Virus record (IMG/VR): IMGVR_UViG_3300030333_005053
Coordinates: 1-36,570 of that record
Reading direction: 5' to 3' (one strand)
Source: a virus
Length of the DNA: 36,570 nt
This document shows, in pieces, positions 5,090 through 36,425 of the stretch. How positions within the stretch are numbered: the stretch's first letter is position 1; the number at the start of each line of letters is the position of its first letter. Under the pieces are notes generated by a model. It saw nothing but the letters and a program-made list of their open reading frames with translations, did not search any database and was not told the origin of the DNA. Both the position numbers and the translations under genes were made by a program.

Positions 5090-5274
5090 TCGTCGCCGTC
5101 CGTAAAAATTCCGCCGGATTTATAGCGCGCGCGAAACTCATCACGTAGCGCGCGCCAAGCGCACAACAATTTTACCGGGCAACTGTCACGCCCGTAAGAA
5201 CTTTTAAATTTTGAAGCGGTTACCCCCTTACCGCATATTGATAAGCGTCCGTAAAATGAAATTGAAGCAGCCAA
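5056..5274 (-). CDS. Small basic protein, first gene of leftward block (start uncertain)
   Basis: This encodes up to 72 aa from a TTG at 5274 with no obvious ribosome site. The C-terminal half (LLCAWRALRDEFRARYKSGGIFTDGDEW) reads like real coding sequence. An AGGGGG run inside the frame (around 5225) is not followed by a usable start codon. It is the most upstream frame before the 5275-5988 control region. It may be a genuine short gene or merely the coupling leader for the 84-aa membrane protein. Confidence 0.42.
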   Translation of the reverse strand: MAASISFYGRLSICGKGVTASKFKSSYGRDSCPVKLLCAWRALRDEFRARYKSGGIFTDGDEWTYLQSKPLA

Positions 5275-5278
5275 CGCA

Positions 5279-5326
5279 ACGCCGCCAAGATCGGCGGCCG
5301 GGCCTTGATGGCCGACCGCCGTGGCG
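5279..5326 (-). promoter_or_regulatory. Nested hairpins upstream of the leftward block
   Basis: A GC-rich run of inverted repeats (GCCGCCAAGATCGGCGGC, then GGCCTTGATGGCC, then CGACCGCCGTGGCG) lies just before the first leftward frame. The first part, ACGCCGCCAAGATCGGCGG, is nearly identical to a sequence at 6298-6317 on the other side of the control region. If transcribed leftward it would form the 5' leader of the accessory block and may act as an attenuator. No promoter consensus is clear beside it. Confidence 0.45.
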
Positions 5327-5430
5327 TTGTCTAATTAAATTGCCGCGGATTGCGCGCGCGTCGTCGCTTGCGGCGCATTTCTAAATTCTGTCTACGGAAC
5401 CCCCTTAAATCCCGCGTTCTAGGCGGTTGT

Positions 5431-5450
5431 GTAGACGTAGACACGTAGAC
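5431..5450. repeat. Three GTAGAC direct repeats
   Basis: GTAGAC occurs at 5431-5436, 5437-5442 and 5445-5450, and the reverse complement GTCTAC occurs upstream at about 5390-5395. It is probably a second protein-binding array on the leftward side of the control region. The ligand is unknown. Confidence 0.4.
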
Positions 5451-5461
5451 AAGCAGCCAGT

Positions 5462-5505
5462 GCGATATCAGTGACACTGTCACGCGATATCAGTGACACT
5501 GTCAC
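5462..5505. promoter_or_regulatory. Tandem 22-bp operator repeat containing GTGACACTGTCAC
   Basis: Two exact, adjacent 22-bp copies (5462-5483 and 5484-5505) each consist of GCGATATCA plus the perfect palindrome GTGACACTGTCAC. A third, nearly complete palindrome (TTGACACTGTCAC) is at 5617-5629. Spacing of two helical turns and perfect dyad symmetry are what a dimeric regulator's operators look like. No regulator gene is recognised in the window, so the ligand may be a host protein or one of the small unknown early proteins. Confidence 0.7.
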
Positions 5506-5510
5506 GCGGT

Positions 5511-5613
5511 ACGCAACGCAACGCAACACGCAACGCCCGCGAGCGAATAACGCCTAAAAACAAGGTGTTTTCTTGATACGCAACGCAACGCCTACGCAAC
5601 GCTTACGCAACGC
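5511..5613. repeat. Iteron-like ACGCAACGC repeats, candidate replication origin
   Basis: ACGCAACGC occurs seven times: 5511, 5516, 5528, then 5578, 5583, 5594 and 5605. In both clusters the first two copies are 5 bp apart and later ones are 11-12 bp apart, close to one helical turn. The clusters flank a short inverted repeat, AAAACA-AGG-TGTTTT (5557-5571), and are followed by an AT-rich stretch (5640-5790) with the palindrome AATTCCGGAATT at 5665-5676. Phased iterons beside an AT-rich zone in a divergent intergenic region are the classic architecture of a replication origin. Confidence 0.6.
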
Positions 5614-5616
5614 ACA

Positions 5617-5646
5617 TTGACACTGTCACGCGATCCCCAAAATAAT
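5617..5646 (+). promoter_or_regulatory. Possible operator-overlapped promoter
   Basis: TTGACA at 5617-5622 is followed 17-18 bases later by AAATAA/AATAAT (about 5640-5646). The -35 box lies inside the third copy of the TGACACTGTCA palindrome, so a protein bound there would block it. The -10 match is fair. It may be a second, repressible rightward promoter about 140 bases upstream of the main one. Confidence 0.4.
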
Positions 5647-5761
5647 TCCGCGAAAATTTTCAAAAATTCCGGAATTGTCAAAAATGCCGGGATTTAGCCC
5701 CAAAAAACGTTGAATTCAACGCTTTTTTCAACGGTTTAATTACGGACCGTCTAAAGTTAAT

Positions 5762-5790
5762 TTGCAATCGCGCCGATTTAATGGTATAGT
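5762..5790 (+). promoter_or_regulatory. Early rightward sigma70-type promoter
   Basis: TTGCAA (5762-5767), a 17-base spacer and TATAGT (5785-5790) match the housekeeping consensus well. Transcription would start at about 5794-5797, directly before a strongly folded leader. It faces the early gene block and is the best promoter visible in the window. Confidence 0.72.
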
Positions 5791-5796
5791 GATGGT

Positions 5797-5969
5797 TCGG
5801 TTGTGTGGAAACACACGCCGGGGGGCGACAAGTCCCGCGGCAACAACCGGGCGCCGCGAGGCGCTTAACCGCGGGATAGCTTCCCGCGGACTGATCTTTG
5901 GCAATCCGGAATACTAACAACAACACGCCCGCCGGCGATGTTGCTCAACGTCCGTTGAGTCGCTGGCGG
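5797..5969 (+). ncRNA. Highly structured early leader RNA (three-way junction plus four hairpins)
   Basis: The leader folds on paper as follows. P1 is CGGTT (5798-5802) with AACCG (5845-5849). It encloses P2, GTGTG-GAAA-CACAC (5803-5816), and P3, GCCG/CGGC plus GGGGC/GTCCC (5817-5841). Next come P4, GCGCC-GCGA-GGCGC (5851-5864), and P5, CCGCGGG/CCCGCGG (5869-5889). A long bulged hairpin follows at 5929-5969, with CTCAACG-TC-CGTTGAG at its tip. P2 and P4 carry GNRA tetraloops (GAAA, GCGA), which often make tertiary contacts. It ends 7 bases before the AAAGGAG of the first gene. It could be a riboswitch-like element, a stabilising leader or a separate small RNA; I match no named class. Confidence 0.55.
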
Positions 5970-5988
5970 TCAATCAAAGGAGAAAACT

Positions 5989-6282
5989 ATGGCAACGAAA
6001 AAAATTGTTACTGAATACTTGCGGAACATTCACGCCGACGCCCAAATTGACGCCAGCTTTGGCGACGTTTGGGAGGCTGAAATCAACGCACCGCAAGGCT
6101 TCCATTGGTGCGAAGGTCCGCACCAACTTGTAGAAAGTTGCCCGGCCGGATTGATCAGCAAAGCTCAATTCTGGTCAAACGTTTTGGACCGACTCCAAGG
6201 TTTGGAGGCGGTCCGATGCGATGACGACAACAACCCGTGCGAAGGCTTTGACGGCTTTGGCGGTTGCGAATGGTGGTCGTAA
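5989..6282 (+). CDS. First early protein, 97 aa, unknown function
   Basis: This encodes 97 acidic, soluble aa with six Cys/Trp-rich positions; the C-terminal end is striking (CDDDNNPCEGFDGFGGCEWWS). The ATG follows a consensus AAAGGAGAAAACT site. It is the first gene behind the early promoter and the structured leader, so it is probably made in large amounts soon after infection. First early genes are often host-takeover or anti-defence proteins. No family is recognised. Confidence 0.75.
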   Translation: MATKKIVTEYLRNIHADAQIDASFGDVWEAEINAPQGFHWCEGPHQLVESCPAGLISKAQFWSNVLDRLQGLEAVRCDDDNNPCEGFDGFGGCEWWS

Positions 6283-6299
6283 GAATCGGCGGCGGCAAC

Positions 6300-6342
6300 G
6301 CCGCCAAGCTTGGCGGCCGGACTTAAACCGGCCGCCGCTTTT
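6300..6342 (+). terminator. Intergenic attenuator-like hairpins
   Basis: GCCGCCAAG-CTTGGCGGC (6300-6317) is a perfect palindrome that overlaps a second, stronger stem, GGCGGCCGG-ACTTAAA-CCGGCCGCC (6312-6336), followed by GCTTTT. The two stems are mutually exclusive, as in attenuators. The short T-tract suggests leaky termination. The downstream AAAGGAG lies 8 bases after the T-tract. Confidence 0.55.
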
Positions 6343-6361
6343 AACATCAAAGGAGAAAACC

Positions 6362-6601
6362 ATGAGCGATTACAACGGTTGGAAGAATTACGAAACTTGG
6401 AACGTTAACCTTTGGATTCAAAACGACGAAAGCTTGAGCAGCATCGCTTTTGAATCGGAAAGCTATAAAGACTTTGTCGACACGATGCGCGAACTTGGAT
6501 CGCTTGAAACGCCGGATCGCGTTGCTTGGAACGATAGCGGCATTGACGTTGACGAAATCAACGAATCAAATTTCAACCGCGAAGAATCCGAAACGCTTTA
6601 A
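6362..6601 (+). CDS. DUF7249-type small phage protein
   Basis: This encodes 79 acidic aa beginning MSDYNGWKNYETWNVNLWIQND. The YNGWKNYETWNV(A/N)LW opening is a widespread phage and plasmid signature that I know as the DUF7249 type, function unknown. Start chosen at 6362 because AAAGGAG lies just upstream; an open frame extends further upstream but runs through the hairpins at 6300-6342. It lies in the early block between other small unknown genes, all with the same ribosome site. Confidence 0.82.
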   Translation: MSDYNGWKNYETWNVNLWIQNDESLSSIAFESESYKDFVDTMRELGSLETPDRVAWNDSGIDVDEINESNFNREESETL

Positions 6602-6616
6602 TCAAAGGAGAAAACC

Positions 6617-6982
6617 ATGAACACGATGCAACATTTTTTGAATGGAACTAAACGCCAGCTCGCGCGTTTTTACGATTGCGAAATTGCGGTCAAGCAATCA
6701 AGCTTGCTCGCTTTTGATTGCCGATTCGGTTTTGAATTTTTCGCGCCGACTCTCAACGTTATTCACGCCAACCATGAGGCGCCGGAAAAATTTCAAACGA
6801 ACGTCTACGTTTTCCAAAACAAAATCAAAACGCTTTTTGTCCATCCGGATTGCTTGGACGGGCATTGGAAAAACGAAACGCAAATTGATTTGGATCGCCT
6901 GATTGTTGAAAACGACACGATGGCGATCGCCAAGTTGATCGCGTTGGATTACGGCCGATACACGTTGGCAATGCATGCTTGA
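6617..6982 (+). CDS. Early protein, 121 aa, unknown function
   Basis: This encodes 121 aa, mixed alpha/beta in look, no membrane segment, with many aromatic residues (FGFEFFAPTLNVIH). AAAGGAGAAAACC precedes the ATG. It follows the DUF7249-type gene by 15 bases and is probably on the same transcript. No known family is recognised. Confidence 0.72.
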   Translation: MNTMQHFLNGTKRQLARFYDCEIAVKQSSLLAFDCRFGFEFFAPTLNVIHANHEAPEKFQTNVYVFQNKIKTLFVHPDCLDGHWKNETQIDLDRLIVENDTMAIAKLIALDYGRYTLAMHA

Positions 6983-7013
6983 TTTAAAACCATCGCCACA
7001 AAAGGAGAATGAT

Positions 7014-7223
7014 ATGTATGATATGAAAACTGAAACCAGCGTTGAGGCATTAGGTGAATTGTTGAGAGCAGCAAGAGAGTTCCAAAAAATTCCTAAATCG
7101 CAAGCCGCGGCCATTTCCCTCAACGATGGCCGTAGCCCGCGATCGCCTGATTGTTGGGAACGTCTTGATAAATGCATTTCAATTATTTCTGAAGATTTAG
7201 ACAAATTTTGGTACCAGAAATAA
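7014..7223 (+). CDS. Early protein, 69 aa, unknown function
   Basis: This encodes 69 aa starting MYDMKTETSVEALG, chosen because AAAAGGAGAATGAT immediately precedes this ATG; an in-frame start further upstream (6975) overlaps the previous gene. The protein is mostly helical with a conserved-looking 'LGELLRAAREFQKI' and 'WERLDKCISIISEDLDKFW'. It is followed by a strong terminator-like hairpin. Function unknown. Confidence 0.68.
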   Translation: MYDMKTETSVEALGELLRAAREFQKIPKSQAAAISLNDGRSPRSPDCWERLDKCISIISEDLDKFWYQK

Positions 7224-7237
7224 TCGCAACAATTCAA

Positions 7238-7271
7238 CCGCCGCGGCGATTCAGCCGCGGCGGCATTTTTT
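7238..7271 (+). terminator. Intrinsic terminator/attenuator with RBS module
   Basis: CCGCCGCGGC-GATTCA-GCCGCGGCGG is a 10-bp perfect stem followed by CATTTTTT. It is almost the same sequence as 8227-8259, and both are followed by a nearly identical A(A/G)CATCAAAGGAGAA ribosome site. It probably sets the level of the downstream DUF932 gene by partial read-through. Confidence 0.75.
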
Positions 7272-7290
7272 AACATCAAAGGAGAATGAT

Positions 7291-8214
7291 ATGAACACGA
7301 CTCAAAATAATATTAGCGACGCAGTTCAAAACGCTTTTAACTTTTCCGTTGAAAAGTTCCCTCTGTTCGGTCCGGACAATTTGCCGACGGATCAATACGG
7401 ATTGTTCAAAAGCGACAGCGGATACATTAAGGGCGTGCAAAGCGTGTCTAAAAATTACACGCCTCATTCCACTGAAGACGTTGTAACGCTGGCGGAAGCG
7501 GCCGCGAGCGCGTTTGGCAACGACGTAAACGTTGATTGCCATTGGCAAAAGGGGCACTATGTCACCATTTCGCCGACCGACGGTTACCGCCGCGCGATCT
7601 ACGGAGAGCGCGACAACATCTTTCCACGGTTAACGATCCGCGCCGGATACAACGGCCAAAGCTTTCGCGGATCAATTGGGTATTATCGCGACGCTTGCGA
7701 TAACTTGCTCATGATACAAACGGTAAAAAAATTTACCGTTTCAATTAGACACGACCGCAACTTGCGGTCGCGAATGAGCGACTTGATTGACACTTTCCGC
7801 GGCTTGTCCGCAAAGTGGCAAAGCGTCGGCGAAATGGCCGCTGAAATGCAACGACGCGAAGTAAGCCTTGCGCGTTTTCTTAACGACGTTTACGGCCAGC
7901 CAACGCCGGAACAACTCGCGTTGCATCAAAGCGGGCAGCGTGTCCGCGCAGTAACGACGCATGAAAAGCGAACGGAAGCAATCTTCCGGCGGATTGTTCG
8001 CGAGCGAACGTTGACCGGGCGACCGGACGTTGATCCAGCCGACTGGCGCGTCAGCGCTTGGGAAGCGTTCAACGCCGTTCAGGGTTACGTTCAACACGAC
8101 GCGACGATACGTCGCGAAAACGATACGCGATTTGACCGCATCATTCGGGCAGCCAATAGCCCTGCGGTCCGCAAAGCTTTTGCAATGGCAACAAGCGACG
8201 CGATCAGCGCGTAA
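7291..8214 (+). CDS. DUF932 (TIGR03299-like) phage/plasmid protein
   Basis: This encodes 307 aa. The order 'GLFKSDSGYIKGVQSVSKNYTPHSTEDVVTLAEAAASAF', an 'RLTIRAGYNGQSFRGSIGYYRDACDNLL' core, and a helical C-terminal half fit the DUF932 family of plasmid and phage proteins: a central beta region with an 'R.xC.N' strand, then helices. The molecular function is not established; these genes commonly sit in early or accessory regions. AAAGGAGAATGAT precedes the ATG, and terminator-like hairpins bracket the gene on both sides, so it forms its own expression unit. Confidence 0.78.
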   Translation: MNTTQNNISDAVQNAFNFSVEKFPLFGPDNLPTDQYGLFKSDSGYIKGVQSVSKNYTPHSTEDVVTLAEAAASAFGNDVNVDCHWQKGHYVTISPTDGYRRAIYGERDNIFPRLTIRAGYNGQSFRGSIGYYRDACDNLLMIQTVKKFTVSIRHDRNLRSRMSDLIDTFRGLSAKWQSVGEMAAEMQRREVSLARFLNDVYGQPTPEQLALHQSGQRVRAVTTHEKRTEAIFRRIVRERTLTGRPDVDPADWRVSAWEAFNAVQGYVQHDATIRRENDTRFDRIIRAANSPAVRKAFAMATSDAISA

Positions 8215-8226
8215 CTTTAAATCCAA

Positions 8227-8259
8227 CCGCCGCGGCAATTCAGCCGCGGCGGTATTTTT
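8227..8259 (+). terminator. Intrinsic terminator/attenuator, copy of the 7238 element
   Basis: CCGCCGCGGC-AATTCA-GCCGCGGCGG is followed by TATTTTT. It differs from the 7238-7271 element mainly at one loop base and shares the flanking CATCAAAGGAGA ribosome site. A duplicated expression module is the simplest explanation. Confidence 0.72.
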
Positions 8260-8279
8260 CAGCATCAAAGGAGAAAACT

Positions 8280-8648
8280 ATGAACACGCCAGCAATTTGC
8301 CAAATCAATTTGAGCAGCGAATTCTTATCTTTCAACGACGATTTAACTCGCGACGACGCCGAAGCGTATAGCGACAAGCTTTGCGAAGCAATTGAAAAGC
8401 TTTGCGACGAAAATTTTCCGGGCAATTTCGCGGACAAGATTACCATTGACGGCGATCCGTCAAATTACTTGTCGGATTCCGACGCGAAACACGTTATCAA
8501 GTTCGTCAATATAAACCCGGTTCGGTGGAACGGCTTACGCAGATCAAACACCGACCATTCATACGCGCGGGCGCATTTTGGAAAAGTCCCCGCCGCGGTT
8601 AACGACTTGATTTATAAAGCGATAACGATAATTGAAAGCGAAGCTTAG
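8280..8648 (+). CDS. Early protein, 122 aa, unknown function
   Basis: This encodes 122 acidic aa, probably alpha-helical in the first half ('TRDDAEAYSDKLCEAIEKLCDENF'), no membrane segment. AAAGGAGAAAACT precedes the ATG. It lies between two terminator-like hairpins, like its neighbour. No family is recognised; early small acidic proteins of this kind may be DNA-mimic or anti-defence proteins, but nothing in the sequence proves that. Confidence 0.7.
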   Translation: MNTPAICQINLSSEFLSFNDDLTRDDAEAYSDKLCEAIEKLCDENFPGNFADKITIDGDPSNYLSDSDAKHVIKFVNINPVRWNGLRRSNTDHSYARAHFGKVPAAVNDLIYKAITIIESEA

Positions 8649-8667
8649 AAAGTTGCTTGTGATTTTC

Positions 8668-8703
8668 AAAGCGGCCGGCCATTAACGCCGGCCGCTTTTT
8701 TTT
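8668..8703 (+). terminator. Strong intrinsic terminator
   Basis: AAAGCGGCCGGC, then CATTAAC, then GCCGGCCGCTTT forms a 9-bp GC stem extended by A-T pairs and followed by eight T residues. This is the best terminator of the early block. It separates the small unknown genes (5989-8648) from the zinc-ribbon and recombination genes, so a new promoter or antitermination is needed downstream. Confidence 0.82.
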
Positions 8704-8778
8704 ATGCTAGCGATATTGATTTTTGCTTTTGCGGGCGTTATGTTTCCGATTCAACGTCAAAGGAGGGCGGAATGTTGA
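8704..8778 (+). CDS. Possible 24-aa hydrophobic leader peptide
   Basis: The frame ATG CTA GCG ATA TTG runs 24 codons to a TGA that overlaps the ATG of the next gene (8772). The predicted peptide, MLAILIFAFAGVMFP followed by a basic, Cys-ended tail, looks like a membrane peptide. It starts directly after the terminator T-tract with no ribosome site, so it is either a coupled leader or chance. The rest of 8649-8771 holds the terminator and a weak TTGATT...TTATGT promoter-like pair. Confidence 0.25.
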   Translation: MLAILIFAFAGVMFPIQRQRRAEC

Positions 8779-9254
8779 GAACAACGACCGGCTTAAAATG
8801 CCGCAAATGCGATTGCATTATTCCAATTGGCAAACACGATTTGTGTCGCGATTGCCGCCGAATGCAGGCGGCAAGCTGGCAACTTGAAGGATTGATTGGC
8901 AACTTTTCGCCAATTGAAATCCGGTTTGCCGCAATCATATTGGCCGGCGTCAGATCAAGCCGTGAAATTTTGCGCTTAATGGATTTAGGCCAAGGCGGTG
9001 CGCCAGTAACGCCGCGGCGGTGCGCAGAAATTGCACGCGATCCGGCAATCATCAAGCTTCTATCGTCCGCCGGTTTAAACGTAACGGCTTTGCACGCCGA
9101 CACTGCGCCAATGCGTTGTGAATGTTGCGGCGCAACCGTAAACAAATTGCCTTGCGTGTATTGCTTGGCGACGCACAAAATAAATTACGAGCCAATTCAG
9201 CCTTGCCGGCTTGAGCGAATCGCGCAACGAATGGACAAGATGTTATGGTCATAA
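8772..9254 (+). CDS. Double zinc-ribbon protein
   Basis: This encodes 160 aa with two Cys-rich modules: CRKC...CRDC at about residues 10-28, and CECC...CVYC at about 115-131. The middle is helical ('IRFAAIILAGVRSSREILRLMDLG'). An AAAGGAGGGCGGA site precedes the ATG. Two zinc ribbons around a helical segment suggest a nucleic-acid-binding or transcription-modulating protein. The position after a strong terminator and before the recombination genes would suit a regulator of delayed-early genes. That role is an inference. Confidence 0.72.
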   Translation: MLRTTTGLKCRKCDCIIPIGKHDLCRDCRRMQAASWQLEGLIGNFSPIEIRFAAIILAGVRSSREILRLMDLGQGGAPVTPRRCAEIARDPAIIKLLSSAGLNVTALHADTAPMRCECCGATVNKLPCVYCLATHKINYEPIQPCRLERIAQRMDKMLWS

Positions 9255-9919
9255 AAATTCACGCGCTCACGCGATGGGCGGTTGAAACAATCATCGCCGA
9301 CAACTTAAATTTTTTTCACGTTGATTCACTTGAATCGTTGCCGGTCGTAAGCTGGTTTGAATTTGAACGAAAAATAAATCCGCTTCAATTTTTCACGCGG
9401 TCGCAACGCTGGCGATATTCGCTTGAGGTGGCAAATCAGGACGAAAGCGATAACGCAATGCACGTTGTTGATTTGCTGGACGCGATCAATATTGATCCTG
9501 AGCATCCCGGTTTCTTGCTTCCGCTTTGTAATTTTCTTGGCGGCATAAAACACGAAAACGAACGCTTTCAAAATCTGGCAAGCCAAGCGTTTGGCATGCT
9601 TGGATATGAAGTTGATGATAGTTTTCATGGTTCATGGTGGCGCGTATGTACCATTATGAACCACTTGCAAAGCGTAACTGATAGCGATTGGATTCATCCC
9701 GACCATTGTTGCGGCGCTGAAATTTATCAGCTAGATCTATTTGAAGAAATGCGCGACGAACAACGCGCGGCTGATTTTTTGTTTGGGCAATCTAACGGCG
9801 AAGAAGTCACGCTAGAAACTTACGTTTTAAGCGCCGACGATCAAAATTGGATTGAAAAACAATTCGGATTTGATGCGCAACTGCGACGACTTGAAATTTT
9901 AACCGGCCGGGCGCAATGA
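9245..9919 (+). CDS. Unknown protein, 224 aa
   Basis: This encodes 224 acidic aa, many aromatic residues, no signal or membrane segment. A 'FLLPLCNFLGGIKHENERFQNLASQAFGMLGYEV' helical stretch lies in the middle and a 'QLDLFEEMRDEQRAADFLFG' helix near the end. It overlaps the zinc-ribbon gene by 10 bp and the next gene by 4 bp (ATGA), so all three are co-translated. I do not recognise a family. Confidence 0.7.
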   Translation: MVIKIHALTRWAVETIIADNLNFFHVDSLESLPVVSWFEFERKINPLQFFTRSQRWRYSLEVANQDESDNAMHVVDLLDAINIDPEHPGFLLPLCNFLGGIKHENERFQNLASQAFGMLGYEVDDSFHGSWWRVCTIMNHLQSVTDSDWIHPDHCCGAEIYQLDLFEEMRDEQRAADFLFGQSNGEEVTLETYVLSADDQNWIEKQFGFDAQLRRLEILTGRAQ

Positions 9920-10122
9920 GTAAGCAACGCGGGCGACCGTTTGAAGCAACCTTTGAAGTTCCAACGCAGCTACCAACGCCAACGCGTTGCGTTCCTGGTA
10001 GCGACGAAAAGATTGAAGTATTGCGGCAACGGTACGCGGCGGGCGTTTTGTTGCATCATCCGGAAGATGCGACGTTGCGCGACTGCAAACCATACGAGCG
10101 AGTTTTCAAGGTGCTTTTTTAA
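9916..10122 (+). CDS. Small protein of the 'PTRxxPGSxEKI' type
   Basis: This encodes 68 aa. 'PTRCVPGSDEKIEVLRQRYAAGVLLHHPEDA' is a pattern I associate with small hypothetical proteins near replication genes of phage-like contigs (P-T-x-x-x-P-G-x-x-E-K-I, then a short helix and H-P-x-D-A). Function unknown. It starts with ATGA overlapping the previous stop and ends with TAATG overlapping the RuvC-like start, so it is tightly coupled in the recombination operon. Confidence 0.7.
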   Translation: MSKQRGRPFEATFEVPTQLPTPTRCVPGSDEKIEVLRQRYAAGVLLHHPEDATLRDCKPYERVFKVLF

Positions 10123-10625
10123 TGAAGACGAAACATATTGGCATTGATCCCGGTAAATCAGGCGCGGCGGCTTGCGTTACCATTAGCGACGGATCAATTG
10201 ACGACGTTGACTGGCTTTGCTTCAATCACCGCGAAACATCCGCGAAGCAAATTTTGAAAACGTTTAAAACAAATTGGAACGATCCGAAAAGTTGCGTTGT
10301 TGAAAAGGTGCATTCGTCGCCACAAATGGGCGTCGTGTCTTCGTTCAGTTTTGGCAAGTCCGCGGGCGCGATTGAAGTTTTAGTTGATTTGGCTTATCCG
10401 CTTACTTGGACCTATTGCAGTCCGCGCTACTGGCAAAGCCGGCTGAATTGCTTGACAAAAGGAAACAAAAACGTAACGCGGCTTGCCGTCAAAAAGATGT
10501 TGCCAAGCATCGCCAAACAAATAACGCACCGCAACGCTGACGCGATACTGATTGCGCTATACGGCGCCGTGCAACATGAGTGCATTGACTTGGAATTGAT
10601 TACGAAAAAACAAGAGTTGTTTTGA
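10122..10625 (+). CDS. RuvC-like Holliday junction resolvase
   Basis: This encodes 167 aa, the usual length for RuvC-type resolvases. Catalytic residues of the RNase H-like fold are visible: Asp9 in GIDPGKSG, Glu61 in VVEKVH, His136 and Asp140 in THRNADAILIA, plus the F-x-F-G-x-x-x-G segment at about 75-82. The enzyme cuts four-way junctions to resolve recombination and branched replication or packaging intermediates. It is the first recognisable enzyme of the recombination set and overlaps both neighbours by a few bases. Confidence 0.88.
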   Translation: MKTKHIGIDPGKSGAAACVTISDGSIDDVDWLCFNHRETSAKQILKTFKTNWNDPKSCVVEKVHSSPQMGVVSSFSFGKSAGAIEVLVDLAYPLTWTYCSPRYWQSRLNCLTKGNKNVTRLAVKKMLPSIAKQITHRNADAILIALYGAVQHECIDLELITKKQELF

Positions 10626-11440
10626 TGCATGACCTTATTAAAAACTTGATCGTCGTTGACGAATCAGAGTATCACGCGCAAAGCGGCGTCGCTTATTTGT
10701 CGTCGCATCGCCTGCAAGCGGTGCGCGAAACGAACGATTGCCAGCAATTTTTTGAAGGCCAACAACTTGAAGACACTTCCGGATTTTTGAGATTTGGGCG
10801 GATGGTTCACGCTTACACGCTTGAAGGTCCGCAAAAGTTTTTTGATGAATGGCAAACGATAGGCGGTCCGCGCGGGCCGCGCGGCGGATACAAAGCGCCG
10901 CACGAATTGACCGCGGAACAATTGAAAACATGGCAAGAAAACAACGGCGGCGAATGGGTAACGCCGCGCGAGCTTGAAAAATTAACGGCGATGGCTGAAT
11001 CCGTTTGGACGGTTGCCGGCAAGCAACTTAGAAAAGGATGGCCGGAGCTTACGGCGCGGGCGGTTGTCGGCGGCTTACGATGCCAAGGCCGCATTGATTG
11101 GATCAGCGAAAGCGACGGCGGTTGCATCGTTGATTTAAAGACAACGCGCAGCCTTGAAATGTTGCCAAATCAAATCGCCAAATTCGGCTACGTGAATCAG
11201 CTCGCGTTTTACCAGTTGTTGTATTGCCTTTGCACTGGCAACGATCCGCCGCCCGTGTACATTGTCGGCGTTGAAAAAACAAAACCATTCGCGGCCAAGT
11301 TGATACAACTTGCACAATACAAGCTTGACGAAAAGCGGCGCGAAAACTTGGCAACGATTAACACGCTCAAGCGTTATTTCGAAAGTACCAAAAGCGAAGG
11401 AGGAAAGTTATGGCAAAAATCACGAAAGATATTGGCGTGA
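10625..11440 (+). CDS. PDDEXK-like exodeoxyribonuclease (DUF3799/RecE type)
   Basis: This encodes 271 aa. The family landmarks are 'SSHRLQAV' near the start, 'FLRFGRMVHAYTLEG' (Gly-Arg-x-x-His of this family), then 'GGLRCQGRIDWI' and 'CIVDLKTT' (the D...DxK core), and 'NQLAFYQLLY'. These identify the PD-(D/E)XK exonuclease related to exodeoxyribonuclease VIII, which degrades one strand of duplex ends to make ssDNA for annealing. The ATG overlaps the RuvC stop (TGATG). Its 3' end overlaps the ATPase gene by 31 bp, so the exonuclease and recombinase are co-translated, as expected for partners. Confidence 0.88.
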   Translation: MHDLIKNLIVVDESEYHAQSGVAYLSSHRLQAVRETNDCQQFFEGQQLEDTSGFLRFGRMVHAYTLEGPQKFFDEWQTIGGPRGPRGGYKAPHELTAEQLKTWQENNGGEWVTPRELEKLTAMAESVWTVAGKQLRKGWPELTARAVVGGLRCQGRIDWISESDGGCIVDLKTTRSLEMLPNQIAKFGYVNQLAFYQLLYCLCTGNDPPPVYIVGVEKTKPFAAKLIQLAQYKLDEKRRENLATINTLKRYFESTKSEGGKLWQKSRKILA

Positions 11441-12186
11441 ACGGAAAGCCAAAAATTGAAATTCACCGCGGCAAAAAACAGAACGCGCGGCGCGTGCTGC
11501 TTTACGGTCCGGGCGGCGTCGGCAAATCTACATGGGCGGCGGGAGCTTGGCAACCGCTTTTTATGTGCGCCGAAAACGGCGTTGACGATTTGGACGTTGC
11601 CAGCGTTCCGGCTGACGGCGTTTATCAAAACTGGCCGTCGTTTCTTGCCGACCTGCAAGAACTTACAAGCAACCCAAAAAATTACGGATTTCAAACGCTT
11701 GTGATTGATTCGCTAGATTGGCTTGAAAAGATAATCTGGCGCGACGTATGCGACGAACACGGTCACAAAGATATCAGCGAATTTGCATACGGCAAAGGTT
11801 ACGGGATCGCGTCGCATTACTGGCGCCAGTTTATTGGCTGCCTTGAAGCGGCGCGAGCGCAAAACGTTTTTATTGTGTTGTTGGCGCATCATAAGATTGA
11901 GCGTTTTGAGTCGCCAGATACCGACGCTTTTGATCGTTATACGATCAACTTGCACAAACTCGCGTCGGCGATGATTCAAGAATGGGCCGACGAAGTGTTG
12001 TTTGCCAACTTTAAAGCTGAAGTACGCGAAAGCGGCGACGGTATCCACAAAACGAAAAAAGGAATCGGCGGCCGTCGCTACGTTCTGACAACGAACAAAC
12101 CGACGGCGGTTGCGAAAAGCCGATTGAATTTACCCGATGAAATTGATTTAAATTTCGCAGCGTATGCGGAATGCATTTCTAAGTAA
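11410..12186 (+). CDS. Sak4-like RecA-fold ATPase
   Basis: This encodes 258 aa. Walker A is GPGGVGKST (33-41), Walker B is TLVIDSLDWLE with Asp100, followed by 'VFIVLLAHHKIERFE' (sensor-like His). These fit AAA_24/Sak4, a core RecA-like protein of phage recombination that promotes single-strand annealing together with an SSB. AAGGAGGAAAGTT precedes the ATG. Exonuclease upstream and SSB-like protein downstream complete the usual trio. Confidence 0.88.
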   Translation: MAKITKDIGVNGKPKIEIHRGKKQNARRVLLYGPGGVGKSTWAAGAWQPLFMCAENGVDDLDVASVPADGVYQNWPSFLADLQELTSNPKNYGFQTLVIDSLDWLEKIIWRDVCDEHGHKDISEFAYGKGYGIASHYWRQFIGCLEAARAQNVFIVLLAHHKIERFESPDTDAFDRYTINLHKLASAMIQEWADEVLFANFKAEVRESGDGIHKTKKGIGGRRYVLTTNKPTAVAKSRLNLPDEIDLNFAAYAECISK

Positions 12187-12204
12187 CCCGAAGGAGGAAT
12201 TGAA

Positions 12205-12654
12205 ATGACCAGCGAATTTTTCAAAGGCGTTGACTTTAGCGCACCGGTTGAAAGCGAGAAAAAAACTTACGAGCCATTAAGCGGCAATTTTGATTTGCTT
12301 TGCGACGACGCAAAAGAAACGATCGCGAGCGTTAACGGGCGCGACGTTCCACAACTTGAGATTCAATTTAAAATTCAAGGCGGCGACCATGACGGCCGGT
12401 TATGGTGGTTCAAATGCCGGCGCGATTTGGATTTTCAAATTGAGCAATGCCGGCAATTGTTCCACTTGTTAGGCCATCAATCACCGCCAGCGGTTACCGA
12501 TTTAATCGGCGAACGTGTCCGCGCGAAGTTGTACGCGAAAAACGGCTACACGAATTTAAGCCGATGGCTTCCGCGTCGCGAAACGCAAGCCAGCCAAGCG
12601 CCGACCAATCCGGCGCCGGCTGCGCCATGGTCTAACGAAGACGGAATGTTTTAA
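12205..12654 (+). CDS. SSB-like protein with acidic C-terminal tip
   Basis: This encodes 149 aa. The N-terminal about 115 residues have an OB-fold-like strand pattern ('YEPLSGNFDLLCDDAKETIA', 'PQLEIQFKIQGGDHDGRLWWFKC'), like the DUF669-type phage proteins found with Sak4. A flexible Pro/Ala/Gln linker leads to PWSNEDGMF, an acidic tip ending in Phe as in bacterial SSB. That tip normally recruits replication and repair partners. AAGGAGGAATTGAA precedes the ATG. Identification rests on fold pattern, tail and operon position. Confidence 0.75.
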   Translation: MTSEFFKGVDFSAPVESEKKTYEPLSGNFDLLCDDAKETIASVNGRDVPQLEIQFKIQGGDHDGRLWWFKCRRDLDFQIEQCRQLFHLLGHQSPPAVTDLIGERVRAKLYAKNGYTNLSRWLPRRETQASQAPTNPAPAAPWSNEDGMF

Positions 12655-12682
12655 CCCAAGCGGGCGGCGTAGCCCGCAAGGC

Positions 12683-12757
12683 GTTTGCGGCTGTTGGCCC
12701 GGCCGCAAACGTTAGTCGCCCGGCCAATTGACGTCGCGCCGGGCGACTATTTTTTTT
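12683..12757 (+). terminator. Tandem hairpin terminator before the PrimPol-helicase gene
   Basis: The first stem is GTTTGCGGC (12683-12691) with GCCGCAAAC (12702-12710). The second is AGTCGCCCGG (12714-12723) with CCGGGCGACT (12739-12748), followed by ATTTTTTTT. The ribosome site AAAGGA begins right after the T-tract. It resembles the early-block modules and probably lowers, rather than blocks, expression of the replication enzyme. The gap 12655-12769 holds nothing else. Confidence 0.78.
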
Positions 12758-12769
12758 AAAGGATTGAAA

Positions 12770-14881
12770 ATGAAAATTCCAAACGGATTGACGGCTGTTG
12801 ATCAATGGGTTTTGTGGCGCGAGATTGACAAAGGCAGCGGCAAGCCAACAAAGATGCCGATTCGTTTAGACGGATCGCCGGCCGCGGTTGACGATTCAAA
12901 ATCATGGTCGTCTTTTGCGCAAGCTTGCGACGCGCTCAAATTCAACGGCGACGCCAACGGCGTTGGGTTTGTTTTCACGACTGACGACAATTTTTTTGGC
13001 ATTGATCTTGATGATTGTTTAGACGAATCGCAAACGTTGCTGCCATGGGCGCAGCCAATCGTAGAAACGTTCCGGACTTATTGGGAAGTTTCGCCAAGCG
13101 GGCGCGGGCTAAAAGGATTTGCCGTTGGTCAAATTCCCGCCGGCTTTAAAAATCGCGCACCAATTGAAAACGGAAGGATTGAAGTCTACGGTTCGCGTCG
13201 TTTTTTTACGGTCACTGGTGATTGGCTTCACGCTGACGAATTTGATTTGCCGAAAATCAAATTTGTTGATGCGTCGCAACTTTGCGAAAAGTATCTACCC
13301 AAACGAAACGCGGGCGCGTCGTTGGGATTTTTGCCAGAACAAGCGAGCGACGAATTTTTTGAGTTGTGTTTGTCAGAATTAAAAAAGTTGCCAAATTCCG
13401 TAAGCGGCGAAAGCGGACACGATAGCTTGCTGCGCGCGGCTTGTGAAACGGTCCGGTTCAATTTAACGGATGCCAGTGCATTGCGTGCGCTGAAATGGTT
13501 CAACAAAAATAAATGCATTCCGCCTTGGTCACAATACGATCTTGAACGCAAACTGAGCGAAGCAAAAAAAATTGCCGGCGAAGAGCAAGGCGCGGCGGTT
13601 ATGTTTGTGCGTCCGAAAACGCACAAACTAGAATTGCCAACAAAGCTAATTGATTCCGACGACTTAGATATTGAAAAGCTGGCTTCCGATGCGCCCGGCT
13701 TTGTCGGCAAAATTACAAATTGGATTTTGGAAACGTCTTGGTATAAACATCCGCAACTTGCGTTAGGCGCCAGCATCGCAACGCTCGCGACGGTCCTTGG
13801 CCGTCGTTATTGCGACGACAACAACACGCGCACCAACATTTATATCTTGTCGCTTGGCGAAACAAGCAGTGGCAAAAACGATGCATTCGTTGCGCCGCGG
13901 TTGCTTTTCAACGCGGCGGGATTGTCGGAACTTTGCGGCTTTACAAATTTCGGAAGTCGTCTCGCGCTGACTCGTCACCTTGAGCAAACGCCGTCGCAAC
14001 TTTTCAGAATTGACGAAGCTGACAATTTGTTTCGCGATATGAATAGCAACGACGTAATGAGCGGACTGGCTGAAGATTTCAAAACGCTTTGGTCGGAATC
14101 CAACAATTTGCAATACCGCGGAAGCGGTTTCATTGATCCCAACAAAACCGTAACCATTGATCAGCCGAACGCATCGCTTTATTGTACGGCGACCCCCCGC
14201 GCATTTTTTGAATCATTAAGCGGCCGCGATATTGAAGGCGGATTGATCGGCCGATTTATCGTATTGCAAGGCGTTGAAAGCTATCCCCCGCGAAACAATA
14301 AAAAGCTTCAAGGCGAACAAGCTGCGCCGCCGAAGCAGATACTTGATTTTTTGAAATGGCAACACGGGCGGCCAGTAATACACGGGCTGGCGCCTTGGCA
14401 TCAATTCGCCGTTGAGCAATCGCCAGAATCAAAGGAAATGATTTTGCAATTTATGGACGACGTCCGCGACGTAATGCGCGAAAACGTTGACCGCAACCCG
14501 GAGGCAGTAAGCGCAATCGGTAAGTCGCCGGAGATTGCCGCAAAGCTTGCGCTGATTGCTGGCATTTGCAACGGTCGCGATGGAATCATCGGCCGCAATG
14601 AAACACAATGGGCGATCAACGTTGCGCGTTTGTCGTCCTCAAATATATCGGCGGCAATGGATTCACACGTAAGCCGAAGCAAGTTTGAATCATTAGTTAA
14701 AAAGCTACGGGCGCGCGGTCGCGAAGCTGGCGAATTATCTTTAACGGAAGTCTCGCGCGTGCTGCGCGTTCCGCCTCAATTAAGAACGGACGTTATAAAC
14801 CATTTGGCGGAATGCAACGAACTCTGCGTTGATATAAAGAAAACAACGACCAAGCCGGTTACGGTTTACCGATTCACCTAG
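12770..14881 (+). CDS. PrimPol-helicase (NrS-1-like primase-polymerase plus SF3/DUF3987-type ATPase)
   Basis: This encodes 703 aa from the ATG at 12770, behind AAAGGATTGAAA; a slightly longer in-frame start at 12728 lies inside the terminator. The N-terminal archaeo-eukaryotic primase-like core shows FGIDLDDC (77-83, metal-binding acids), EVSPSGRGLKGF (106-117) and IEVYGSRRFFTVTGD (137-151). This set is seen in the self-priming polymerase of phage NrS-1 and related PrimPols. The C-terminal ATPase shows GETSSGKND (363-371, Walker A) and LFRIDEAD (411-418, Walker B). It should both prime and unwind, and perhaps polymerise, at the phage origin. There is no other DNA polymerase gene in the window. 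It is the last gene of the rightward block and converges with the tail genes. Confidence 0.88.
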   Translation: MKIPNGLTAVDQWVLWREIDKGSGKPTKMPIRLDGSPAAVDDSKSWSSFAQACDALKFNGDANGVGFVFTTDDNFFGIDLDDCLDESQTLLPWAQPIVETFRTYWEVSPSGRGLKGFAVGQIPAGFKNRAPIENGRIEVYGSRRFFTVTGDWLHADEFDLPKIKFVDASQLCEKYLPKRNAGASLGFLPEQASDEFFELCLSELKKLPNSVSGESGHDSLLRAACETVRFNLTDASALRALKWFNKNKCIPPWSQYDLERKLSEAKKIAGEEQGAAVMFVRPKTHKLELPTKLIDSDDLDIEKLASDAPGFVGKITNWILETSWYKHPQLALGASIATLATVLGRRYCDDNNTRTNIYILSLGETSSGKNDAFVAPRLLFNAAGLSELCGFTNFGSRLALTRHLEQTPSQLFRIDEADNLFRDMNSNDVMSGLAEDFKTLWSESNNLQYRGSGFIDPNKTVTIDQPNASLYCTATPRAFFESLSGRDIEGGLIGRFIVLQGVESYPPRNNKKLQGEQAAPPKQILDFLKWQHGRPVIHGLAPWHQFAVEQSPESKEMILQFMDDVRDVMRENVDRNPEAVSAIGKSPEIAAKLALIAGICNGRDGIIGRNETQWAINVARLSSSNISAAMDSHVSRSKFESLVKKLRARGREAGELSLTEVSRVLRVPPQLRTDVINHLAECNELCVDIKKTTTKPVTVYRFT

Positions 14882-30783: not shown

Positions 30784-30796
30784 CCGCCGTTGAGGA

Positions 30797-30828
30797 CAAC
30801 GCCCGGTTTCGGCCGGGCGTTGTTTTTT
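30797..30828 (+). terminator. Intrinsic terminator inside the cassette
   Basis: CAACGCCCGG-TTTCGG-CCGGGCGTTG is a perfect 10-bp stem followed by six T residues. It ends the first two cassette genes; the methyltransferase ATG is 15 bases further on, so read-through or a separate promoter must feed it. Confidence 0.82.
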
Positions 30829-30842
30829 AAATAGGGGAAATC

Positions 30843-31601
30843 ATGACTCCGTATTTTGAAGATGATTTAATAAAAATTTATTGCGCTGATTGCAACGATG
30901 CTTTTGATTTTATTGAAAACGTTTCGTTAATTGTTACAAGTCCGCCTTACAATCATTTAGGAAATCGGTTGCCGAACAATCCAACCGGATTGCATGGCGA
31001 AAGCAATTGGGTAAACGACACAAAAAAAAATTGTTATCCCGATGATATGGATGAAAGCGAATATCAAAAATTGATGATTGATATTTTCAAAAAGTCAAAA
31101 CAATGCGTCAACGAAAACGCTTCATTGTGCATCAATCACAAATGCCGCTGGCGAAATAAAACGTTGCTGCATCCAATTGATTTAATTAATCAACTCAAGC
31201 CGGATTGGAATTTGAGGCAAGAAATTATTTGGCAGCAACCCGGATCAACAACTTTAAACGCAAAACTTTTCGCGCCAAACGATGAAAGAATTTTTTGGTG
31301 TACTGGCGGCGATAAATTTAAATGGAATCAACCAGCAGCGTCTTTTCTAAGCGTTTGGAATATATCGCACGAAAAAAGACAATCAAACAATCATCCTTGC
31401 CCTTATCCGACTGAGCTAGTTAAACGACTAGTGATTGGATTAACAGACGAAAATGATATTGTTCTTGATCCATTTATGGGAAGCGGAACAACATTGGTTG
31501 CCGCAAAAATGCTAAACAGGAAAGCAATCGGAATTGAGAAAGAAGAAAGATTTTGTGAAATTGCAGTTGATCGGTTACGTCAAAACGTTTTGAATTTTTA
31601 A
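30843..31601 (+). CDS. DNA methyltransferase (beta-class, N4-cytosine or N6-adenine)
   Basis: This encodes 252 aa. Catalytic motif IV, TSPPYN (32-37), comes first, then a target-recognition middle part, motif X-like 'HPCPYPTELVKRLV' (184-197) and motif I, DPFMGSGTT (209-217, AdoMet binding), with 'AIGIEKEERFCEIAVDRL' after it. This order is the beta class of amino-methyltransferases. Ser before PPY favours N4-cytosine but does not exclude N6-adenine. No restriction endonuclease gene is adjacent, so it is a solitary enzyme that may protect phage DNA. Its codons are visibly more AT-rich than those of neighbours, which suggests recent transfer. Confidence 0.9.
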   Translation: MTPYFEDDLIKIYCADCNDAFDFIENVSLIVTSPPYNHLGNRLPNNPTGLHGESNWVNDTKKNCYPDDMDESEYQKLMIDIFKKSKQCVNENASLCINHKCRWRNKTLLHPIDLINQLKPDWNLRQEIIWQQPGSTTLNAKLFAPNDERIFWCTGGDKFKWNQPAASFLSVWNISHEKRQSNNHPCPYPTELVKRLVIGLTDENDIVLDPFMGSGTTLVAAKMLNRKAIGIEKEERFCEIAVDRLRQNVLNF

Positions 31602-34380: not shown

Positions 34381-36000
34381 TTAAACCAGAATCGGCCCTC
34401 TTGTTTCGTAGATACTTCCAGCCGATTGCCCCGCTGCTATCGCGACCCCTAACGCCATGACGGCGGCAACAATTCCGTCGATCTTCTTTCCGCTTCCATG
34501 CGGCGGCCGTACTGGCCGAATGTTTCCGTTATGATCCGCGTGAACTTCTACGTTCTCGGCGCACCAACCAAGCATTGGATTTTCGCCATGGTCAAGCGTT
34601 CCCGCCAAAACGCAAGCCTCCAATTCTTTGCAAGGCGCGGACAATGTTGCGGCGCCTTGCCGAACTTTCACCATTGGAACGCCAGCGGATTCAAGACGCA
34701 TGCTCAACCCTTCAGCGTTCCAAGGATCAAAGCCAACGTAACGAACGTTGTAACGTTCGCACGCTTCAACGATGAATTTTTCAATCCAACTTTGATCAAT
34801 GCGATGGCCGGGAATTACTGTCAAATGCCCTTGATCAGCCCACGTTGAATATGGGACACGATCCCGCTTTTCTATTTCATGCATTCGCTTTTCAGGAATC
34901 CAAAAATGCGGACGCAATTTAAATCCGCCGTCGGGAGTCCTTGCCGCCAAACAAACGCAAGTTAGATCGGTCGTTGCCGACAAATCCAAGCCAGCAAACA
35001 CAACGGTTTCGCGCTCAAAGTCCGTTTGCGTTGTGGCGCATTTGCGCCAATCGTCCATCATCAACCATCGCATTTTTTGCGAAGTCCATTGGTTGCAATG
35101 CAAACGCCGAAACGTGTTTTGATACGACGGTTCATTTATCGCGCGGTTGCATTCCGCAGCCATGTAATCTTCGCGCAGACTGATCCCGAAATTTGGATTT
35201 GATTTTTTCCAGACTTCCGGATCTTGCCAGTCGTCGTTTTCTTCGGCTTCGTAAATGACCGGCAAGTAATACGGATCGTCAATCTTTCCATCGCGCACGC
35301 CCTTGGCGTATGAATACTCCTTGTAGCAAATGCTTTCGCGATCATGGCCGGCGGTAGTAATCCAAATGCAAACGGGCTGCGGTCGGGCGCCCATTCCCGT
35401 TTGCAAAACGTCGTACATTTTTCGCGTCGGCCATGCGTGCAATTCATCGCCGCATAAAAACGAAATATCAAACCCGTGCGACGCTTCTTCGTTAGCTGGA
35501 ATGGCGCGCAAAAAACTATCGCGATAAATAATCCGTCGTTGTGAATCAACGACTTTGCAAACGTCCTTTAGATCTTTGTTCGCGCGTAACATTGCGGCCG
35601 CCGTTGCGAAAGCCAAGCTCGCTTGCTCGCGGTCGGCGCCCGCGCAATAGTTTTCGCCGCGGGCTTCGCCATCGCATAGCATGACAAACAACGCTTCGCC
35701 AGCGGTCCAAGTTGTCTTGCCGTTTTTGCGCGGAACGGTCCGAAACGATTTGCGGAAGCGTCGCGTTCCGTCCGGACGGAGCCAACCATACATTGTCGCG
35801 TTTACGTCCGCTTGCCACGGTTCCAATACAAACGGCTTGCCGGCCGCCGGGCCTTTTGTATGTTGCAAGCAATCCGAAAAAAAGTTGACGGCGCGGCGCG
35901 CGTGTTCTGGTGACCAAATGCAATCGCCAGCATTTGCGGACGGATCAAACACGACGCCGCTTGCGTTAATGGTCGGCGGATTTTCAAAACGCGCAGTCAA
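34381..36000 (-). CDS. Terminase large subunit
   Basis: This encodes 539 aa. ATPase: Walker A 'RTVPRKNGKTTW' (87-98), Walker B 'FLCGDELH' with Asp185-Glu186, coupling motif 'WITTAG' at about 213-218. Nuclease (RNase H-like): Asp339 in FAGLDLSATTD, Asp425 in VGFDPWNA, Asp508 in KKIDGIVAAVMALG. This is the Terminase_1 family found in HK97-like cos phages. It pumps DNA into the capsid and cuts concatemers. The ATGA overlap with the small subunit gene supports co-translation. Confidence 0.94.
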   Translation of the reverse strand: MTARFENPPTINASGVVFDPSANAGDCIWSPEHARRAVNFFSDCLQHTKGPAAGKPFVLEPWQADVNATMYGWLRPDGTRRFRKSFRTVPRKNGKTTWTAGEALFVMLCDGEARGENYCAGADREQASLAFATAAAMLRANKDLKDVCKVVDSQRRIIYRDSFLRAIPANEEASHGFDISFLCGDELHAWPTRKMYDVLQTGMGARPQPVCIWITTAGHDRESICYKEYSYAKGVRDGKIDDPYYLPVIYEAEENDDWQDPEVWKKSNPNFGISLREDYMAAECNRAINEPSYQNTFRRLHCNQWTSQKMRWLMMDDWRKCATTQTDFERETVVFAGLDLSATTDLTCVCLAARTPDGGFKLRPHFWIPEKRMHEIEKRDRVPYSTWADQGHLTVIPGHRIDQSWIEKFIVEACERYNVRYVGFDPWNAEGLSMRLESAGVPMVKVRQGAATLSAPCKELEACVLAGTLDHGENPMLGWCAENVEVHADHNGNIRPVRPPHGSGKKIDGIVAAVMALGVAIAAGQSAGSIYETRGPILV

Positions 36001-36425
36001 GCCAGATACCTTTGCGTCGTCGACATTTCTTGCGGCTTGCTGCCAAGTCCGGCAAGCTTGGCGCGGTCAACCGGACTGAACCCAAAGCGCGACGCCAAAC
36101 CCTGCCACTTGTCAAACGCGCGGCCGGCCAACTGGTAATCCAGATCTAGCTGCGCTTGGCGAAGCGTTGCGTACCATTCGCAAAGTTGTTCTAGCGCCGC
36201 TTGATCAAGCGACGTCGCCAAGCCAAGCCGCGTCAATTCTGGCACGACTTGCGCCCACATGTGCCGGCAGAGTTCCGCATGCTCTCCGTTGCCGTCGAAA
36301 CGTTCCGGCATCGCGGCAACGCCGGCCGGTTTAATTTCGTCGGGAATGTCTCGCTTGCCGGGATTCCCCTCAATCAATTTGATCGCCGCCGGTTTTGGTT
36401 TTCGGCCGCTTCCGATTCCGCCCAT
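35997..36425 (-). CDS. Terminase small subunit (P27 family)
   Basis: This encodes 142 aa. The start 'GGIGSGRKPKPAAIKLIEGNPGKRDIPDEIKPAG' is the P27/Terminase_4 signature, followed by helical 'AELCRHMWAQVVPELTRLGLATSLDQAALEQLCEWYATLRQA' and 'SRFGFSPVDRAKL'. It recognises the packaging site and loads the large subunit. The ribosome site is unusual: TTAGGGGGGGAATC, a run of seven G residues just before the ATG, part of the G-tract array of the window end. Confidence 0.92.
   Translation of the reverse strand: MGGIGSGRKPKPAAIKLIEGNPGKRDIPDEIKPAGVAAMPERFDGNGEHAELCRHMWAQVVPELTRLGLATSLDQAALEQLCEWYATLRQAQLDLDYQLAGRAFDKWQGLASRFGFSPVDRAKLAGLGSKPQEMSTTQRYLA

Follow-up and report, generated by a model that had tools for sequence, protein, structure and literature searches.

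The early operon of this uncultivated phage begins with a 192-nt leader that, by thermodynamic folding, appears to be a real case of an unusually stable, strand-biased RNA of no known class in an isolated phage, although the three-way junction near its 5′ end is only marginal. As the leading, still tentative explanation, argued by analogy with known phage systems, we propose that the leader acts in cis to let RNA polymerase read through in-line terminators between the early genes. The window analysed is the whole of IMG/VR record IMGVR_UViG_3300030333_005053 (36,570 bases). Its − strand carries a block with HK97-type head genes (TerL, portal and capsid) and its + strand an early block (5989-14881) with an exonuclease, a Sak4-like annealing protein and a primase, the early (+) and late (−) blocks diverging across 5090-5988. 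Portal and TerL are about equally remote from actinobacterial, Firmicutes and planctomycete (pPLIM01) phages. Joining the two ends would place an HNH gene (539-847, − strand) and TerS/TerL (35997-36425, − strand) in the usual HNH-TerS order, so this may be a whole genome that is circularly permuted.

The leader is flanked by a promoter-like site on its 5′ side and by the first early gene on its 3′ side (see the table), and transcription would be expected to start near 5797 (about 5795-5799), judging from the predicted promoter; the consensus scan that found this site returned three sites in 1.7 kb against 1.1 expected. When folded, the leader reached a z-score of -4.47, with none of 200 dinucleotide shuffles as stable, compared with -1.72 (11 of 200 shuffles) for its complementary strand. 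This difference points to selection on the transcribed RNA, the excess of predicted stability residing in the strand presumed to be transcribed. The elaborate folding claimed in an earlier, sequence-only reading of this DNA thus proves to be far beyond chance, and so are its two GNRA tetraloop hairpins: two distinct perfect GNRA hairpins were found in none of 1000 dinucleotide shuffles of the 192 nt, and one in 1.3%. The multiloop of the minimum free energy structure, present in 84% of shuffles, is not unusual. In a GC-corrected energy scan of the genome the leader falls about 2.7 sd below the trend, and three other early intergenic regions (12571-12750, 8131-8310 and 6181-6360) exceed it. Since these are equally or more structured, the leader is one of several hairpin-rich spots in the genome.

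Table. Predicted features of the early control region, leader and early operon
Feature	Position	Strand	Description
Predicted sigma70-type promoter	5762-5790	+	TTGCAA, 17 nt, TATAGT, extended -10 TG; consensus scan
Structured 5′ leader of early operon	5797-5988	+	MFE -88.3 kcal/mol, z -4.47
Domain 1	5798-5849	+	P1 (5798-5804/5843-5849) encloses P2 and P3
P2 hairpin, GAAA loop	5803-5816	+	GTGTG-GAAA-CACAC; probability 0.57-0.95 in most folds
P3, 9-bp imperfect stem, GACAA loop	5817-5841	+	probability ~1.0 in almost all folds
P4 hairpin, GCGA tetraloop	5850-5865	+	directly adjoins P1; probability 0.96-1.0
P5 hairpin CCGCGGGA-UAGCU-UCCCGCGG	5869-5889	+	probability 0.99; terminator-like stem without proper U-tract
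Linker, mostly single-stranded	5890-5928	+	contains weak P6 (5897-5910), probability 0-0.66
P7 two-part hairpin	5929-5969	+	probability 0.95-0.96; ends 6 nt 5′ of SD
Repeated translation start region ATCAAAGGAGAAAACTATG	5973-5991	+	first of five copies; repeat search
First early gene	5989-6282	+	97 aa, no relative in databases searched
GNRA (GCAA) hairpin and terminator-like hairpin 5′ of gene 2	6288-6340	+	core 6312-6336, then GCTTTT (U4)
Predicted intrinsic terminator	7238-7269	+	-24.2 kcal/mol, TTTTTT; 27 nt before ATG 7291
Predicted intrinsic terminator	8226-8259	+	-25.1 kcal/mol, TTTTT; 26 nt before ATG 8280
Predicted intrinsic terminator	8668-8706	+	-23.4 kcal/mol, T8; 73 nt before next ATG
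Predicted intrinsic terminator	12714-12757	+	11-bp stem; T8 tract adjoins SD AAAGGA of primase gene, ATG 12770

The individual stems of the sequence-only reading were all found where it had placed them: CGGTT/AACCG (5798-5802/5845-5849), the GAAA hairpin, the 9-bp stem, GCGCC-GCGA-GGCGC (5851-5864), CCGCGGG/CCCGCGG (5869-5875/5883-5889) and the two-part hairpin, the last of which ends 6 rather than 7 bases before the Shine-Dalgarno sequence (SD) AAAGGAG of the first early gene (5976-5982). P2-P5 and P7 are robust hairpins in silico, with P3 dropping to 0.58 only when the transcript was extended upstream to 5653. The closing helix P1 depends on transcript length, with a pairing probability of 0.96-0.98 in the first 53-94 nt (5797-5849/5890), 0.73 in 5797-5988, 0.18-0.20 in transcripts reaching 6040 and 0.52 in those reaching 6288 (overall range 0.07-0.98). 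Forcing it to form costs 1.5 kcal/mol; P1 and P2 compete for G5803-U5804, which are common to both, and alternative long-range pairs compete with P1 as well. Of the closed three-way junction that had been described, P2 and P3 are thus predicted to form and P1 to close in nascent RNA, but closure weakens in the full leader and mostly disappears (~0.2) in transcripts extended into the start of gene 1; a three-way junction is likely to exist at most during RNA synthesis. With closure only marginal, taking GNRA loops plus a junction as the mark of an RNA with tertiary structure was an overstatement. In all folds tried, the SD of the first gene is largely accessible (unpaired at 0.62-0.74), apart from minor pairing to 5896-5899 (probability 0.14), and none of the leader hairpins was seen to be followed by a proper U-tract. 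An arginine-rich open frame of 41 codons (5792-5917) overlaps the leader and is probably there by chance, since it begins 5′ of the predicted transcription start and has no SD.

Comparisons with known RNAs agreed with the earlier view of a structured early leader of no nameable class. No Rfam covariance model matched the window at the gathering threshold, and at E ≤ 10 the region 5650-6100 gave only a chance miRNA match on the other strand (E 2.1); a tRNA, a tmRNA or another known RNA family was not supported by these searches. Homologues of the leader were found in none of the phage, plasmid or IMG/VR searches: near and distant blastn against phages and distant blastn of the leader against plasmids gave no match, nine matches to leader sequence patterns all lay inside frames of 151-919 codons and had no leader fold (another pattern had no match), and a single-sequence covariance model of the leader run over 1.57 Mb of loci returned nothing below E 1 except itself. 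Peptide patterns recovered no relatives of gene 1, the primase or the portal, and the 17 contigs matching the start-region pattern ATCAAAGGAGAAAACYATG included none that was related. The sole close relative found is a 16-kb contig (TerL 99%) that does not include the leader region; a TerL profile search added relatives at only 38-44%, and distant phages have only single genes in common with this one. Relatives of the DUF932 protein (gene 7291-8214) number 25 (44-58%), all in unrelated metagenomic phages and none among annotated phage records, and the neighbourhoods on those 25 contigs have no other early gene and no leader in common with this phage. The missing homologues do not count against the structure.

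Downstream of the leader, four canonical or near-canonical predicted terminators (6312-6336, 7238-7263, 8226-8253 and 12714-12748) stand 20-27 nt before the next start codon. No promoter fits into such a gap, so the genes beyond could be transcribed only by polymerase that has already passed the terminator. After the terminator at 8668-8706 there is room for a promoter, and this one may be an ordinary operon end. Hairpins with a U-tract at ≤ -18 kcal/mol number five on the + strand, compared with about 0.1 per shuffled genome strand, and in the late operon, on the − strand, the only hairpins of that strength are the reverse sides of + strand terminators. The terminators at 6312 and 12714 lie about 30 and 60 nt past the preceding stop codon, where ribosome shadowing would not cover them. 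Five early genes have the start region TCAAAGGAGAA in common (five copies, <0.1 expected), and in four of them a strong hairpin lies immediately 5′ of it, that of gene 1 being P7, without a U-tract; one hairpin-SD cassette is duplicated (7231-7299 and 8220-8288, 88% identical). We also noted that 12571-12790 is the most structured window of the genome, with three consecutive strong hairpins before the primase gene on both strands, and that a DNA methylase gene is preceded by a -23.4 kcal/mol hairpin with a T-tract (30795-30843, hairpin 30795-30824) 18 nt before its ATG.

With the in-line terminators in view, ‘structured RNA’ ceases to be a vague label and becomes a specific hypothesis open to a cheap test. 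At the front of the early transcript, the leader RNA, unaided or together with host factors, would modify the very polymerase that transcribed it, and the modified enzyme would then read through the intrinsic terminators separating the early genes. The active part would be domain 1 with the adjoining P4, about the first 70 nt, which we propose because these elements fold best on emerging from the polymerase. The bias in stability towards the transcribed strand, the high probability of the three-way domain in nascent RNA, the position of the leader directly 3′ of the promoter-like site and the terminators with no promoter room behind them all support this proposal, in which we infer a start near 5797, working terminators and the leader as what overcomes them. 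Counting against it, we identified no comparable leader for the similar in-line terminator 5′ of the methylase gene, the stability of P1 becomes marginal as transcripts lengthen, and terminator read-through might simply be partial. The comparisons with HK022 putL/putR, the boxA-like sequence (both below) and the homologue searches also yielded nothing in its favour.

Antitermination has its nearest rival, a possible reading and a close second, in a generic array of 5′-UTR hairpins that would protect the early mRNA against nuclease attack at its 5′ end and tie up upstream sequence so that the SD stays unpaired, the leader being the strongest case of a hairpin-before-SD style found across the early operon. 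It ranks so high because that style is general across these genes and the SD stays free whichever fold is taken; P7 stands just before the SD, where other early genes carry terminator hairpins, hairpin-SD cassettes are repeated, and the leader is matched or exceeded in structure by other early intergenic regions. However, it leaves the U-tracts of the in-line hairpins unexplained, along with the presence of five leader elements where one would do. If the leader merely stabilises the 5′ UTR, the finding is an ordinary one, and the arrangement of terminators before gene starts would still have to be explained.

The remaining explanations are less likely than either antitermination or a generic array. 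We consider it improbable that the leader is a protein-dependent, nut-like antitermination site in which a phage RNA-binding protein reads the GNRA or GACAA loops. The in-line terminators would suit such a site, and the GAAA, GACAA and GCGA loops in consecutive hairpins recall the GNRA-like loops of the lambda and P22 nut sites (boxA-boxB), GACAA being the loop of P22 boxB. Unlike in nut, though, the boxA-like sequence of the leader (TGATCTTTGGCAA, 5892-5904) is on the wrong side of the hairpin and is not above chance (with up to 3 mismatches allowed, 97 matches would be expected and 72 were found), so that by boxA the leader is not a nut site, and no N-like arginine-rich small protein was seen among the early genes read.

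Ranked next, and also improbable, is a role at the DNA level, with the palindromes acting as DNA or as single-strand initiation hairpins in a control region or replication origin. The genes diverge here, and the adjoining 5460-5730 is rich in operator-like 22-bp repeats, iteron-like repeats and AT-rich palindromes, but the strong strand asymmetry in stability is what an RNA would give. Within that adjoining region, at 5462-5640, two exact 22-bp direct repeats with the palindrome GTGACACTGTCAC and a third copy, placed on the -35 element of another predicted promoter (5617-5646, matching at 11/12), are likely to be repressor operators; we identified no repressor gene to go with them. Four copies of the iteron-like repeat TACGCAACGC (5510-5614), followed by the AT-rich palindromes (5656-5685 and 5702-5727), form a possible replication origin.

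A riboswitch-like sensor or translational switch, as the sequence-only reading had suggested, or an attenuator is very improbable: the length and position of the leader would suit one and long-range alternatives do compete with P1, but the SD is not sequestered, the leader hairpins have no proper U-tract and no Rfam family matched. Least probable of all is that processing frees a stable small RNA from the leader, a reading which the compact and stable 5′ domain would fit but for which no terminator or processing site was identified.

Among known systems, the arrangement at the early gene starts is reminiscent of the SAS/ESAS elements of Cluster K mycobacteriophages, in which a repeated SD-containing motif precedes many genes, often with inverted repeats just upstream, and which their authors prefer to see as DNA-binding sites rather than mRNA hairpins (PMC3203893). 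The likeness of the TCAAAGGAGAA starts and their upstream hairpins to these elements is in arrangement only; the inverted repeats of this phage form GC-rich hairpins followed by U-tracts, as terminators do, and the motif sequence is unrelated.

For the proposed antitermination, the closest parallel is the put RNA of phage HK022. The putL RNA, located just 3′ of its early promoter, binds polymerase and suppresses terminators kilobases away without protein factors, and it consists of two long V-shaped stem-loops with a triplex (PMC9378689). Read-through by put RNAs acts in cis and relies on the β′ zinc-binding domain. Like putL, the leader is a strongly folded RNA at the start of the early transcript (as predicted from the promoter-like site) with a candidate active region of about 70 nt, ahead of intrinsic terminators (6312-12757). 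In contrast to put, it consists of a pair of hairpins that a further helix may or may not close, and P4 comes after them; the spacing of about one nucleotide between the put stem-loops might have a counterpart in the way domain 1 adjoins P4, but this domain branches and its P1 is marginal. Local alignment of the leader with the HK022 PL/PR (putL/putR) regions gave at best 15 bases (E 0.17) and the covariance model of the leader had no match in HK022 26-36 kb, so membership among put RNAs by sequence was rejected; put-like action is a separate claim, made here by analogy. In its narrower form, namely that the first ~70 nt are an RNA-only antiterminator, unrelated to HK022 put in sequence and fold, which carries polymerase past the terminators at early gene starts, we regard the claim as rather unlikely. 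Protein-free antiterminator RNAs are known from very few phages, and if this form were true, the leader would add a second design, unrelated to the first, from a phage remote from the lambdoids; it would show that evolution arrived at such a device more than once and provide a compact cis element for study.
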